Shown here: piece after piece, positions 1,197 through 56,238 of the stretch
How the letters are laid out: each line of letters opens with the position of its first letter
Position numbering within the stretch: the first letter of the stretch is position 1
Assembly: GCA_021295815.1 (NCBI GenBank)
Contig: JAGWBQ010000018.1
Location: 1 to 56,238, forward strand
Origin: Gemmatimonadota bacterium
GTDB lineage: Bacteria; Gemmatimonadota; Gemmatimonadetes; Longimicrobiales; Gaopeijiaceae
Direction of reading: 5' to 3'
DNA length: 56,238 nt
Translations under genes and position numbers: made by a program
The notes under the pieces: generated by a model
Seen by the model: the letters and a program-made list of their open reading frames with translations, nothing else
Told to the model about the DNA's origin: nothing
Database searches by the model: none

Positions 1197-1350
1197 GCTC
1201 GCACGAGCGCCGAGAGGGGCGAAGCGCCGCGCCGGCAAGGCGCGATGAGGGGCGAATAGCACCGCTCTTCGCCCGAAGAGCAACACGGAGAGCAGCGTCC
1301 GGCGCGGATGCGGCGCAGCTCGAACGCCGTGGGAGGCTTTGTTCACGGGC
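1197..1350. repeat. Interspersed intergenic repeat, copy A
   Basis: This stretch between EIIB and EIIC aligns over its whole length with 3158-3310 between ribH and nusB. The two copies share many identical blocks, for example CGCGCCGGCAAGGCGCGATG, TTCGCCCGAAGA, TCCGGCGCGGA and CACGGGC, with small gaps between them. A hairpin CGCGCC-GGCAA-GGCGCG is conserved in both. This copy also has a second short palindrome, GCTCTTC-GCCC-GAAGAGC. Neither copy holds a convincing gene. It is probably a chromosomal REP/BIME-like repeat or a mobile miniature element remnant; which one cannot be told from two copies. Confidence 0.75.
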
Positions 1351-1353
1351 TGC

Positions 1354-1827
1354 CTAAGACAGTAGGGCCGCGAGGCCGACCGGTGCGCTCTCCGGAAGAT
1401 CTCTGGCCTCAACGCGGACGGACGAATTCTCGAGTTCGAGCAGACAGGCCGCCTCGCTCTTGGAGAGGTGTACGTAGCTCAGCCGCCGGTTCCTCCCCGG
1501 GCGGTGGTAGAGTCCGCCAAGGTTGACCTCGCATCCGCTCAGCACGCCGTCTCGAGCGACTTCGCGCATGGAGGCGACGTCCCGGGTGAGCAGCGCCGTA
1601 CGGGTCCGGTCTTCGCGCCAGCCTTCGAGCTGCTCGCGCGTTCGCGACACGGTCGAGAACACGACCTCGACCCCGCCCGCGCCGAGGCGGTAGATGTCCT
1701 GCTCCCAGTCCGAGACCGCCAGTTCGTCGTCCGCGACGACGTAGCGGTCGATCCTGAGCCTGGTGCCCCAACCGAGCACTACCTGTCCGTGGATCAGACG
1801 CTCGTCGACGCGTATGAGGACGATCAA
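1354..1827 (-). CDS. PTS mannose/fructose/sorbose-family EIIB component
   Basis: Cytoplasmic phosphocarrier of the mannose-type PTS, 157 residues, close to the usual EIIB length. It carries the family signature RVDERLIHGQV near the N-terminus. The histidine in it, about residue 14, is the expected phosphorylation site that receives phosphate from EIIA and gives it to the sugar held by EIIC/EIID. The start is TTG at 1827, one base after the EIIA stop. The C-terminus has the usual hydrophobic-strand plus acidic pattern of the fold. Its place between EIIA and EIIC fits a standard man-type operon. Confidence 0.92.
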   Translation of the reverse strand: MIVLIRVDERLIHGQVVLGWGTRLRIDRYVVADDELAVSDWEQDIYRLGAGGVEVVFSTVSRTREQLEGWREDRTRTALLTRDVASMREVARDGVLSGCEVNLGGLYHRPGRNRRLSYVHLSKSEAACLLELENSSVRVEARDLPESAPVGLAALLS

Positions 1828-1828
1828 G

Positions 1829-2317
1829 TCAGTCCCCCGCTCCGAAGGAGATCGCGTCCCGTCCGCATTCCACCATCTTCCGCGCTATCTCCCCGGGGCG
1901 GTCGCGTTCGGCGTAGACGAAGGTCAGGAGCATGGGAAGGTTGACTCCTCCCACCGCCACCCGCGCTCTGTTGTCGCGGCAGCAGGCGTGCGCGGCGAAG
2001 CCGCAGCTTCCCGTTCCCAGGTCGGAGAAGACAAGCGTGGGATGACCGGCCGCCATCTCCTCGATCCGATCGCAGAGCTCCTCAGGTGAGAGTCCCTCGT
2101 TCGACAAGGGTCGGAGAATCTCGGCGCCGCCGCCGGCGATGCGTTTGACCGCAGACACCAGTCCATGCGCCAGCCTCCCGTGCGCGACCACTATCCCTAT
2201 GACCCGACGGTCTTCCGAAGCGACTTCGACCTGCGCCGGGCCGGCCGTGCGCGTTTCGAGCGCTTGGGTGTCGGGTTCTCTCCGAGAGAGGTCGCCCTCT
2301 CCACAGACGTCCGTCAC
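1829..2317 (-). CDS. PTS mannose-family EIIA component
   Basis: Soluble phosphoryl carrier with the EIIA-Man fold. The sequence IGIVVAHGRLAHGL holds the expected active-site histidine (about residue 46 with the start used), followed by VFSDLGTGSCG and VGGVNLPML, which are characteristic of the family. No ATG, GTG or TTG lies directly before the conserved IGIVVAHG, where the family normally begins. The nearest in-frame choice is GTG at 2317, directly after the hpf stop, which gives about 40 extra N-terminal residues. A rare ATA start at the conserved block is possible but there is no strong ribosome-binding site. The gene is downstream of hpf and upstream of EIIB. Confidence 0.85.
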   Translation of the reverse strand: MTDVCGEGDLSRREPDTQALETRTAGPAQVEVASEDRRVIGIVVAHGRLAHGLVSAVKRIAGGGAEILRPLSNEGLSPEELCDRIEEMAAGHPTLVFSDLGTGSCGFAAHACCRDNRARVAVGGVNLPMLLTFVYAERDRPGEIARKMVECGRDAISFGAGD

Positions 2318-2318
2318 C

Positions 2319-2645
2319 CTATCCGGCGTCCGGAAGTGCGCTCGGCTTCTGGGCCTGATGGTCGCGGTCACGGTCGCGAAGTCTGCGCAACTTTCTCGAG
2401 AGGTGGCCGACCACTTGATCCAGGGCCGTGCGGAAGTCGTGAGCCTCTCCTCTCGCCACGACGCTCGGGCCTCCCTCGATCCGCATCACCACCTCCACCT
2501 CGCGAGTGCGTTTCTCCTCCGAGAAGATCACATCGGCCGATCTGGCCCGCACATGGAATTTCGAGAGTCTGCCGACCTGACGTTCCGCCATGCGCTGGAC
2601 ATATTGCGCGACGCGGCAGTTACGGGCGCTGATGCTGACTTTCAC
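2319..2645 (-). CDS. hpf: Ribosome hibernation promoting factor HPF/RaiA (short form)
   Basis: Binds the ribosome decoding region in stationary phase and inactivates or dimerises ribosomes. The 108 residues show the beta-alpha-beta-beta-beta-alpha pattern of the family: MKVSISARNCRV, then DVIFSEEKRTREVEVVM and a C-terminal basic helix HLSRKLRRLRDRDRDH. The C-terminal dimerisation domain of long HPF is missing, so this is the short type. The start is GTG at 2645, with a strong GGAGGTGAG ribosome-binding site just upstream. An hpf gene next to PTS genes is a known arrangement (for example near rpoN in Proteobacteria); no hprK kinase is seen here. Confidence 0.9.
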   Translation of the reverse strand: MKVSISARNCRVAQYVQRMAERQVGRLSKFHVRARSADVIFSEEKRTREVEVVMRIEGGPSVVARGEAHDFRTALDQVVGHLSRKLRRLRDRDRDHQAQKPSALPDAG

Positions 2646-2698
2646 TCCTCACCTCCATTGGTTCGGGATGTTCCTGAGTCGATGCCAAGGTTACGCCA

Positions 2699-3130
2699 TT
2701 ACCCACTTCGGCGGTAGATGCCGTCAAGGACGCCGTTGACGAATCCTGGGGAATCGCCGCCGCCGTAGCTGTCCGCGATTCTCACCGCCTCCTGGATCGC
2801 GACCTTCGCATGCACGTCGTCGACGTAGAGTATCTCGACGCTGGCGATCCGGATGATCGCCCGATCGATGCGAGAGATTCGGGAGAGCTTCCAGTTTTCC
2901 AGATTGCCCGAGATTCGGGCGTCGATCTCTTCGAGCCTGAGGTGCAGAAGTTCAAGCAGTTCAACGACATAGCTCAATCTGGCTGGAGAGATGTGCCGTG
3001 TGGCCGCGACCTCGGCAAGCGCATCGAGGACGGTTCCCCGTGGAAGTGCGGTTTCCCAGTGGTAGTGGACCTGCACGGCCCACGCTCGGGCCCGCGTCCG
3101 GTCGAGGAAGGGGCGCGCGGCACGCTTCAC
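2699..3130 (-). CDS. nusB: Transcription antitermination factor NusB
   Basis: NusB binds boxA RNA with NusE (S10) and supports rRNA antitermination. At 143 residues it has the normal length. It shows RTRARAWAVQVHYHWE at the N-terminus and the family signature around residues 85-120: LSRISRIDRAIIRIASVEIL, followed by VAIQEAVRIADSYGGGDSPGFVNGVLDGI. The start is GTG at 3130, with a weak AGGCGG upstream. It follows ribH, which is a common bacterial linkage. It is separated from ribH by the second copy of the intergenic repeat, so repeat RNA lies in its 5' leader. Confidence 0.95.
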   Translation of the reverse strand: MKRAARPFLDRTRARAWAVQVHYHWETALPRGTVLDALAEVAATRHISPARLSYVVELLELLHLRLEEIDARISGNLENWKLSRISRIDRAIIRIASVEILYVDDVHAKVAIQEAVRIADSYGGGDSPGFVNGVLDGIYRRSG

Positions 3131-3157
3131 ACCGTCCGCCTGCCAGCCCACGGACGA

Positions 3158-3310
3158 TCTTGCGCGAGCGCCGAGAGCGGGTAGCGTCGCGCCGGCAAGG
3201 CGCGATGAAGGGTGAACCACGCCGCTGTTCGCCCGAAGACCGAAACGGAGCGCAGCGGTCCGGCGCGGACGCCGCGATCTTCGAATGCCGTGAGATATAT
3301 GTCCACGGGC
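3158..3310. repeat. Interspersed intergenic repeat, copy B
   Basis: Second copy of the element described at 1197-1350, in the same orientation, filling the ribH-nusB gap. The conserved hairpin TCGCGCC-GGCAA-GGCGCGA is intact (7 bp). The block TTCGCCCGAAGAC is kept, but the longer GCTCTTC/GAAGAGC palindrome of copy A is damaged. The copies differ by many substitutions and a few single-base gaps, so the duplication is not recent. If transcribed with the rib-nusB operon, the hairpin would lie in the leader of nusB. Confidence 0.75.
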
Positions 3311-3312
3311 CG

Positions 3313-3798
3313 CTAACCGCCGATCCGCCCGAAAACGGCGATCATCTCGGCGGCGGCGGCGGCGGCTTCGCGGCCCTTGTTTTTCCCGTCGTCTCCGGAA
3401 CGGGCCAGAGCCTGCTCCATCGTGTCTGCGGTAAGCACGCCGAAGGTGACCGGAATCGGGGCAGCGTCGGCCAGGGCTCCCAACCCGAGCGCGGCGCGGC
3501 CGCACACGTAGTCGAAGTGCTGAGTTTCGCCCCTGACCACGCAGCCGAGCGCGATGACGGCGTCCGCCTCGGCCGCCGACACCACCCGAGCGCAGGCCTG
3601 CGGCAGCTCCCAAGCGCCCGGAACGCGATGGACGCGGACGGAATCCGGAGCTGCTCCGAGCTCGTTCAGGCAGCGGAGAGCGCCCGAAAGCAGACCGTCG
3701 GTCACCTCCGAATTGAAGCGAGCACAGACGATGGTGAAACGGCGCCCTGAGAGGTCCGCGTCCCCGAAGGCCGCAGGCTTCGGCCGTGCATCGCTCAC
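3313..3798 (-). CDS. ribH: 6,7-dimethyl-8-ribityllumazine synthase
   Basis: Condenses 5-amino-6-ribitylaminouracil with 3,4-dihydroxy-2-butanone 4-phosphate, the second-to-last step of riboflavin synthesis. The 161 residues contain the family motifs in order: RFNSEVTDGLLSGAL (about 27-41), VPGAWELP (59-66), VIALGCVVRGETQHFDYVC (81-99, including the catalytic histidine) and PVTFGVLTADTMEQALARSG (116-135). The start is GTG at 3798, overlapping the ribBA stop as GTGA. It is the last riboflavin gene of the ribD-ribE-ribBA-ribH run. Confidence 0.96.
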   Translation of the reverse strand: MSDARPKPAAFGDADLSGRRFTIVCARFNSEVTDGLLSGALRCLNELGAAPDSVRVHRVPGAWELPQACARVVSAAEADAVIALGCVVRGETQHFDYVCGRAALGLGALADAAPIPVTFGVLTADTMEQALARSGDDGKNKGREAAAAAAEMIAVFGRIGG

Positions 3799-55310: not shown

Positions 55311-56238
55311 GCTTCAATGAGGCCGAGGCGGACCCGCCCCGGTAGGGTTCCTGGCCAAATTCGGTCCTGCGCTGGCCACCGTCGGCTTCAAAGAGGCCGG
55401 GGCGGACCCGCCCCGGTAGGGGGAGCGACACGTCGGTAAATACGGACCTTCGCTCCAGGTGCTTCAAAGAGGCGGGGGCGGACCCGCCCCGGTAGGACGC
55501 GGCCGGCGCAGGCGAGAGGATCGGCATTAACCTGCTTCAAAGAGGCGGGGGCGGACCCGCCCCGGTAGGACCCGAGGGAGAGGCGACCGAATCCGAGGAA
55601 GACGAGGCTTCAAAGAGGCGGGGGCGGACCCGCCCCGGTAGGCTCCTACCGATTGGGACGGGGTAAAGGCCGACATTTGCCGCGCTTCAAAGAGGCCGGG
55701 GCGGACCCGCCCCGGTAGGCTAAACGCCGGAAGGCCGAGCCGGCCGAGTCCGTCCCGCTTCAAAGAGGCCGGGGCGGACCCGCCCCGGTAGGAGTACCGG
55801 GCTGGGTCGGGACGCCCCCGCTGCAAAAAGCTTCAAAGAGGCCGGGGCGGACCCGCCCCGGTAGGCCCCAAGCAGCTTTAGATCGGCGTGCCAGTCGATG
55901 CCGCTTCAAAGAGGCCGGGGCGGACCCGCCCCGGTAGGCTGCCTGCGGGACGTGTCGCGTTGCTGTCTGGACCTGGCTTCAAAGAGGCCGGGGCGGACCC
56001 GCCCCGGTAGGTGTACGCCTGATGCCCCCGGTTATGGAGATTTTCCGGCTTCAAAGAGGCCGGGGCGGACCCGCCCCGGTAGGTCGAACCAGCCGTACGA
56101 CCGCTGATCGACCCATTCGCGCTTCAAAGAGGCCGGGGCGGACCCGCCCCGGTAGGCCGTTCGCTCACATGTGGGGCATCCTGTGCGGCGAAGCTTCAAA
56201 GAGGCCGGGGCGGACCCGCCCCGGTAGGGAGGCTACAC
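55311..56238 (+). CRISPR. CRISPR array, 13 repeats visible, continues past the window
   Basis: Repeats of 36 bp begin GCTTCAAAGAGGCC and end CCGGTAGG; the centre forms a stem CCGGGGCG-GACC-CGCCCCGG. Starts: 55311, 55385, 55461, 55534, 55607, 55684, 55757, 55830, 55903, 55976, 56048, 56121, 56193. The 12 complete spacers are 36-41 bp and all different by eye. Repeat 1 is degenerate (two changes, AATGAGG and CCGAGG). Repeats 3-5 share one C-to-G change in the stem. No cas gene or AT-rich leader is in view. The strand given follows the handle-like end; the degenerate left end suggests instead that the leader lies to the right, so orientation is open. Confidence 0.97.

Follow-up and report, generated by a model that had tools for sequence, protein, structure and literature searches.

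Two operon gaps of a Gemmatimonadota genome hold probable copies of an IS630-type miniature element with a conserved fold

To our knowledge, bacterial miniature inverted-repeat transposable elements (MITEs) are usually taken as passive, lineage-bound relics with arbitrary interiors. REP/REPIN sequences, which go with RAYT transposases, are intergenic palindromic repeats. IS630 reportedly prefers the TA within CTAG, a preference credited to Tenzen and Ohtsubo in 1991, and IS630-family elements are described as inserting at TA and duplicating it (PMC2170065). Among the published systems covered here, the closest case is RUP of Streptococcus pneumoniae, a 107-bp repeat for which mobilisation by IS630-Spn1 has been proposed (PMC2229807). 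The same source describes the Correia/NEMIS elements of Neisseria, with terminal inverted repeats bearing TA ends, forms of 107 and 155 bp, and stem-loop transcripts. In Geobacter metallireducens, a predicted short RNA family comprises 24 intergenic copies with the central palindrome GRCGTAGCGCTGCTACGCC (PMC2700814). Here we describe an element found twice in a 56,238-nucleotide stretch of a Gemmatimonadota bacterium (Longimicrobiales; assembly GCA_021295815.1, contig JAGWBQ010000018.1, positions 1 to 56,238, forward strand; hereafter the window), in the gaps between ribH and nusB and between the EIIB and EIIC genes. As judged from sequence, both gaps quite probably hold old copies of an IS630-type MITE whose + strand fold is selected, most likely as RNA.

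A preliminary description of the window had placed the same repeat of about 150 bp in both gaps. The likeness holds, at 84% over the best 75 nt and 80% over 152 nt, but the limits were drawn too short. When 17 of the 18 blastn matches in the own genome are aligned with their flanks (C15:20392, probably a chance match, was omitted), the element extends from one CTAG-type end to the other. Copy A thus occupies 177 bp of the ribH-nusB gap (3140-3316, + strand), and copy B occupies 179 bp of the EIIB-EIIC gap (1179-1357, + strand, the last base being read from the sequence); both are antisense to the genes. In this alignment the inverted repeats at the family ends read roughly NTAGCAGCCCGYGG...CCACGGGCTGCTAG. 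Their counterparts are CTGCCAGCCCACGG (3140-3153) and CCACGGGCCGCTAA (3303-3316) in copy A, and CCGGCAGCCCGCGG (1179-1192) and TTCACGGGCTGCCTAA (1342-1357) in copy B. The CTAG end of both left repeats has decayed, and the terminal tetranucleotides of the window copies now read CTGC/CTAA and CCGG/CTAA. Family members span 59-254 bp without protein coding, and the listed window open reading frames that cross the two copies show no apparent conserved frame.

Local duplication is rejected because many further copies occur in the own genome and in relatives. The own genome (2.47 Mb) contains 18 blastn matches to the element and 67 matches at an expectation value (E) <=0.001 to R1, a sequence-only model built on own-genome copies. 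Ten of the 67 are training copies, copy A among them (118 bits), many are fragments, and one place is counted twice, once on each strand. In the relatives set, R1 matches are found in 17 of 39 genomes, own included. Copies from 11 relatives share a common core; 10 of these relatives have different end sequences, while the ends in G010 resemble those of the own genome. A structured model, R2, was built from 14 relatives' copies with zero own-genome copies in training, and it detects both window copies (copy B, 1179-1356, E 2.7e-16; copy A, E 4.9e-7).

Copies also occur in other phyla. A pattern scan of named genomes yielded at least 120 stretches, and the 80 that were listed went into the analysis; the record titles among the listed stretches name Gemmatimonadota/Longimicrobiales, Acidobacteria/Vicinamibacteria/Bryobacterales, Actinomycetota, Deltaproteobacteria, Geobacter, Myxococcales, Nitrospirae and Latescibacterota. 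On these loci R2 gave 97 matches in 75 of 80, most of them full length and 7 on the opposite strand of the listed element, and no match in L093, L140, L147, L151 and L171. All 17 genomes chosen as carriers have matches, from 1 to at least 150 per genome (E<=0.001), as do 33 of the 150 genomes of a phylum sample, own included. Binning errors are possible for single phyla; in copy-rich metagenome-assembled genomes (MAGs), the listed matches are spread over many contigs. Plasmids, phages and viral contigs, searched separately, gave no element match. Recent spread is visible in G015, whose copies are near-identical and often lie at contig ends. Many G015 contigs start or stop within the element, and judging by these breakpoints it seems to be the element itself that breaks the assembly.

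The copies vary in form. Three own-genome copies (L014, L018, L020) consist of the left half alone and stop near AAGGCGC, and another (L019:2954-3123) looks as though its arms had traded places, its right end being the left end in reverse complement. On the Longimicrobiales chromosome OX639991 (G039), copies form head-to-tail arrays with periods of ~171 and ~249 bp and up to five copies (C1:3738486-3739347; L146, L308). Long variants of ~248-254 bp (L100, L130, L146 and similar) carry, according to the model match, their extra length apically. Three elements (L364:195-282, L365, L366) are shortened to 88, 68 and 59 bp and keep the usual ends and only short remnants of the core.

On the features examined, the element is an IS630-type MITE: short, non-coding and dispersed, with IS630-like terminal inverted repeats. 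Of the origins offered in the preliminary description, a miniature element was thus the right one. Young G015 copies carry CTAG ends wherever the end is visible. IS630-family transposase genes lie inside elements of ~1.13-1.19 kb with the same end layout in G019, G017 (= G053), G041, G039, G048, G052 and the own genome, with one end in G041 reading CTAT. By manual count, the ends of the insertion sequence agree with those of the resident element at 18/22 bases in G041, 18/23 in G017 and 17/23 in G019. A search of the own genome for the end pattern with 2 mismatches stayed below its control (166/161 vs 258/247). The element probably shares the CTAG target with IS630 itself but is without a transposase. 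With RUP it has in common that it is short, non-coding and intergenic, with IS630-like ends and a probable TA target; unlike RUP as published, it is G+C-rich, measures ~165-178 bp, has a conserved folded core and occurs in several phyla. Correia/NEMIS elements are alike in their terminal inverted repeats with TA ends, but they are described for Neisseria, and the text of PMC2229807 does not mention covarying arms.

The fold of the family was assessed through covariation. In a structure-free scan of 48 standard-length copies (effective number 13.7; L153_2115, L096_2290 and L144_3556 were dropped beforehand), hairpin pairs make up the top 10 and 12 of the top 15, with non-hairpin pairs mixing in lower. 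From the scanned sequences we picked 33 copies, own-genome copies excluded, in an alignment not fitted to structure (A4). RNAalifold folds A4 into a single rod of 57 pairs, 42 of which have changes on both sides. In this rod 94.6% of cells are paired, against 30-44% in slid controls, and none of 500 shuffles, which keep shared descent, reaches any of five measures. The hairpin CGCGCC-GGCAA-GGCGCG, proposed earlier as the conserved feature of the repeat, is indeed present in both window copies (3188-3204 in copy A and 1228-1244 in copy B, + strand), but it is not kept as a hairpin. The consensus fold of A1, an alignment of own-genome copies, lacks this hairpin, and at least 5 of the 10 copies in A1 have a changed left arm or none; in the wider family this left arm pairs elsewhere, within the whole-length rod. 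A1 holds 10 of the 18 blastn matches; it omits three half copies (C6_74, C7_252, C11_108), four that are rearranged or cut (C13_96, C10_24, C7_230, C11_42) and one that is probably due to chance (C15_20).

The two strands are not equivalent. In the terminal stem, with the arms aligned blind to wobble, 124 G.T face 58 A.C mismatches across 55 of 56 representatives (L096_2290 was dropped); 38 lean towards G.T and 7 towards A.C (P ~1e-6 if independent). Counted for A4 on the RNAalifold structure, which is itself biased to G.U, G.T exceeds A.C throughout (terminal 64 vs 14, inner 93 vs 4, apical 10 vs 7). The + strand is the more stable fold in 14 of 14 relatives' copies, though not in window copy A. 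The G.T excess and this stability indicate that the family's + strand is the one with pairing kept. Because the arms change in a matched fashion and the wobbles favour one strand, the family seems to be under selection as a folded single strand, as RNA or, less likely, as single-stranded DNA (ssDNA).

Orientation relative to genes is also uneven. The complete chromosome OX639991 has 72 matches in 55 clusters, of which 32 lie between co-directional genes as called by our own crude method, 27 antisense and 5 sense; the other 23 were left out as not so placed or flagged inside genes. A mixed set of 100 elements (76 of the 97 R2 matches, 14 relatives' copies and 10 own copies, with cut, opposite-strand and some weak matches omitted) has 32 antisense vs 17 sense, with 15 copies at locus edges and 10, including window copy A, 'inside' genes by the same crude gene calls. 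Outside Actinomycetota the split of this set is 29 vs 8.

Several observations weigh against a selected fold on an IS630-type element. The own-genome copies of A1, taken alone, give 29 predicted pairs with one double change and an unfavourable covariation term. Window copy A breaks several R2 pairs, and its folding energy is unremarkable and similar on both strands (z -1.1 and -0.9). Applied to the interior, the wobble-blind alignment of the arms reverses the terminal result, G.T 152 vs A.C 257, an excess that we read as fixed internal-loop mismatches, and the A4 wobble count is biased towards G.U by the structure used. Actinomycetota copies (L099, L104, L161 and others) lean sense, 9 vs 3 antisense. 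As to the transposase, the own-genome IS630 copy (L089:716-1878) is divided between two reading frames, and apart from CTAG and CCGT its ends have little in common with the local element; the IS630 model scores above cut-off in only 9 of 24 element-bearing genomes, and copy-rich G012, G015 and G046 are without a match, although MAGs lose repeats. Finally, TAG/TAA element ends close frames of at least 80 aa in 43 of 103 cases, only somewhat more often than CTAG sites of these loci in general, for which the figure, with the element ends counted in, is 154 of 464 by the same gene calls. Stop-codon location would thus mostly reflect where CTAG occurs and is tolerated.

Some of these points would suit a plain IS630 MITE whose core has no function. 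Its arms would match through a shared fit to the transposase, and the matching could stem partly from template-switch correction of palindromes. The ends are IS630-like, the whole element is palindromic, the shortened derivatives do without most of the core, and own-genome copies covary little. We nevertheless regard a plain MITE as unlikely. Across phyla, the core is conserved more than the ends, and compensatory change reaches the inner and apical stems, both in the scan and in A4. Internal-loop mismatches, e.g. CCGA (A4 columns 34-37) facing GAA (columns 142-144), are near-invariant rather than corrected, and the wobbles are biased toward one strand. That core and the covarying arms together suggest that something selects the fold.

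The selected strand might instead be recognised as folded ssDNA, by the attC- or IS200-like logic of recognition of folded single-stranded DNA. G.T pairs form in DNA too, the strand asymmetry would be the same, and in G039, by skew sampling, element orientation tracks replication as well as transcription, the two being not fully separable. Four G039 clusters lie in genes that run counter to their surroundings; those at 1836761, 3355340 and 4183412 follow the genes, which counts against ssDNA, whereas the one at 3651087 follows replication and speaks against RNA. Also against ssDNA, the ends suit a DDE transposase, an enzyme that works on duplex DNA. A mobile element recognised as ssDNA is in our judgement about as improbable as the plain MITE, and the wobbles, together with the tie between orientation and gene direction, make us lean towards RNA.

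For an IS630-type MITE selected as a folded + strand, the following course of events can be proposed. The ends, CTAG plus an inverted repeat of roughly 21-27 bp, are of the kind on which IS630/Tc1-mariner transposases act, and IS630-type transposases would move the element in trans, by cut-and-paste, with the TA of CTAG as target. Where that TA belongs to a TAG stop codon, insertion would rebuild TAG on one side, because the canonical inverted repeat starts with G, so that the element could slip between tightly packed operon genes. This points to a way for a transposon to enter TAG stop codons without doing much damage, and the element would account for odd operon gaps and for contig breaks in MAGs. 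Unlike in ordinary MITEs, the interior is not arbitrary: in copies from other genomes, across phyla, the + strand has one rod-shaped fold, its pairing maintained through compensatory changes and wobbles around a conserved core and near-invariant internal-loop bases. This folded strand would most likely be produced as RNA, with a bound factor helping the element to persist or move. Insertions that place the + strand in an operon mRNA would usually be lost, which would explain the antisense bias, although Actinomycetota do not fit.

More tentatively, the family may be a cross-phylum class of mobile non-coding RNA. Its folded core would be the functional part, bound by the transposase or a host factor for movement or survival, and its terminal repeats would be re-fitted to the resident IS630 transposase. 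With a fold under selection, it becomes testable whether a parasite that lacks genes has a functional structure in its RNA (or ssDNA). What sets the family apart from MITEs as they are described in the cited passages is a folded core conserved over several phyla. A literature search, which included PMC2229807, PMC10969869, PMC2170065, PMC2700814 and PMC2996986 and had supplements and most subscription papers outside it, found no description of the family. In a text search, the longer core strings were found in none of the papers covered, and the 12-mer GCACCGAGAGCG was found once each in two animal papers, probably as primers. The G. metallireducens RNA family may be the same element, seen earlier without its ends. 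Its palindrome, as published, resembles the apical hairpin of G015, GGCATAGCAGCGCTACGTC, a likeness by description rather than by alignment; transposon ends are not mentioned in the text of PMC2700814. One copy of the present element is found in a record titled Geobacter sp. (L126).

The position of the two window copies was compared with relatives. In the 29 loci examined, out of 35 other genomes with a ribH match, the nusB start lies -89 to +61 bp from the ribH stop in every case, against 182 bp here (by extrapolation of tblastn matches). The ribH-nusB gap had rightly been called unusual, and because it is tight in all 29 it is best read as an insertion. For empty sites, 9 comparisons were chosen among those listed of 333 spanning rows, many of which are due to neighbouring copies. 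The flanks of G039:2551841 are joined in L158, a clean empty site where, by our own reading, the genes overlap as TGATG. Three further G039 sites are looser empty sites (2385218, 3046305, 4183412), 207166 keeps a right-end remnant, two comparisons concern ribH-nusB and two are uninformative. The empty sites are too diverged to show a 2-bp duplication; CTAG is seen at young G015 ends.

A regulatory RNA of the ribH/nusB and EIIB/EIIC operons, such as a terminator, an attenuator or a riboswitch-like signal, would suit a position between co-directional genes and the conserved structure of the family. It is nonetheless very improbable: the own genome has copies at many further sites (with unannotated neighbours), the kept + strand is antisense to both operons, the 29 relatives leave no room between ribH and nusB, and none of 14 sources (the window part and sets of 7 and 6 loci) has an Rfam 15 match that overlaps an element. 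Copies elsewhere and the tight ribH-nusB spacing in relatives led us to reject a signal specific to these two operons. Of the shared RNA signal suggested earlier, what stands is selection in the family for one-strand folding, seen in covariation and wobbles; nothing indicates a signal for these operons.

A repeat of REP/REPIN type, for which a RAYT (Y1) transposase would work on single-stranded hairpins, is scarcely credible. The intergenic hairpin, some tandem arrays and single-strand folding recall such repeats, but the ends differ, being long terminal inverted repeats with CTAG ends common to DDE-type IS630 elements. Of 24 genomes that carry the element, 18 (own, G012, G015, G039, G042, G046 and G048 among them) show no Y1_Tnp match and 6 have any match, although incomplete MAGs leave a remainder. 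The REP-type origin entertained in the preliminary description was rejected on these grounds.

The genes around the two copies all lie on the - strand. ribH (3313-3798), so named in the preliminary description, has one match in 36 of the 39 genomes, own included, by protein search, and its TAG stop codon (3313-3315) falls within the right end of copy A. nusB (2699-3130), named likewise, comes after ribH in the same orientation at all 29 loci examined by tblastn. The EIIB gene (1354-1827), with its TAG stop codon (1354-1356) within the right end of copy B, and the EIIC gene (502-1167) are placed by open reading frame, their names coming from the preliminary description only.

Elsewhere in the window, weak R2 matches lie 291 bp apart at 55770-55863 and 56061-56154 (E 0.095 and 0.23), perhaps by chance or in a repeated coding segment. 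In L062, a thiamine pyrophosphate (TPP) riboswitch above gathering score (790-890) starts ~4 bp past the end of an element copy (620-786).

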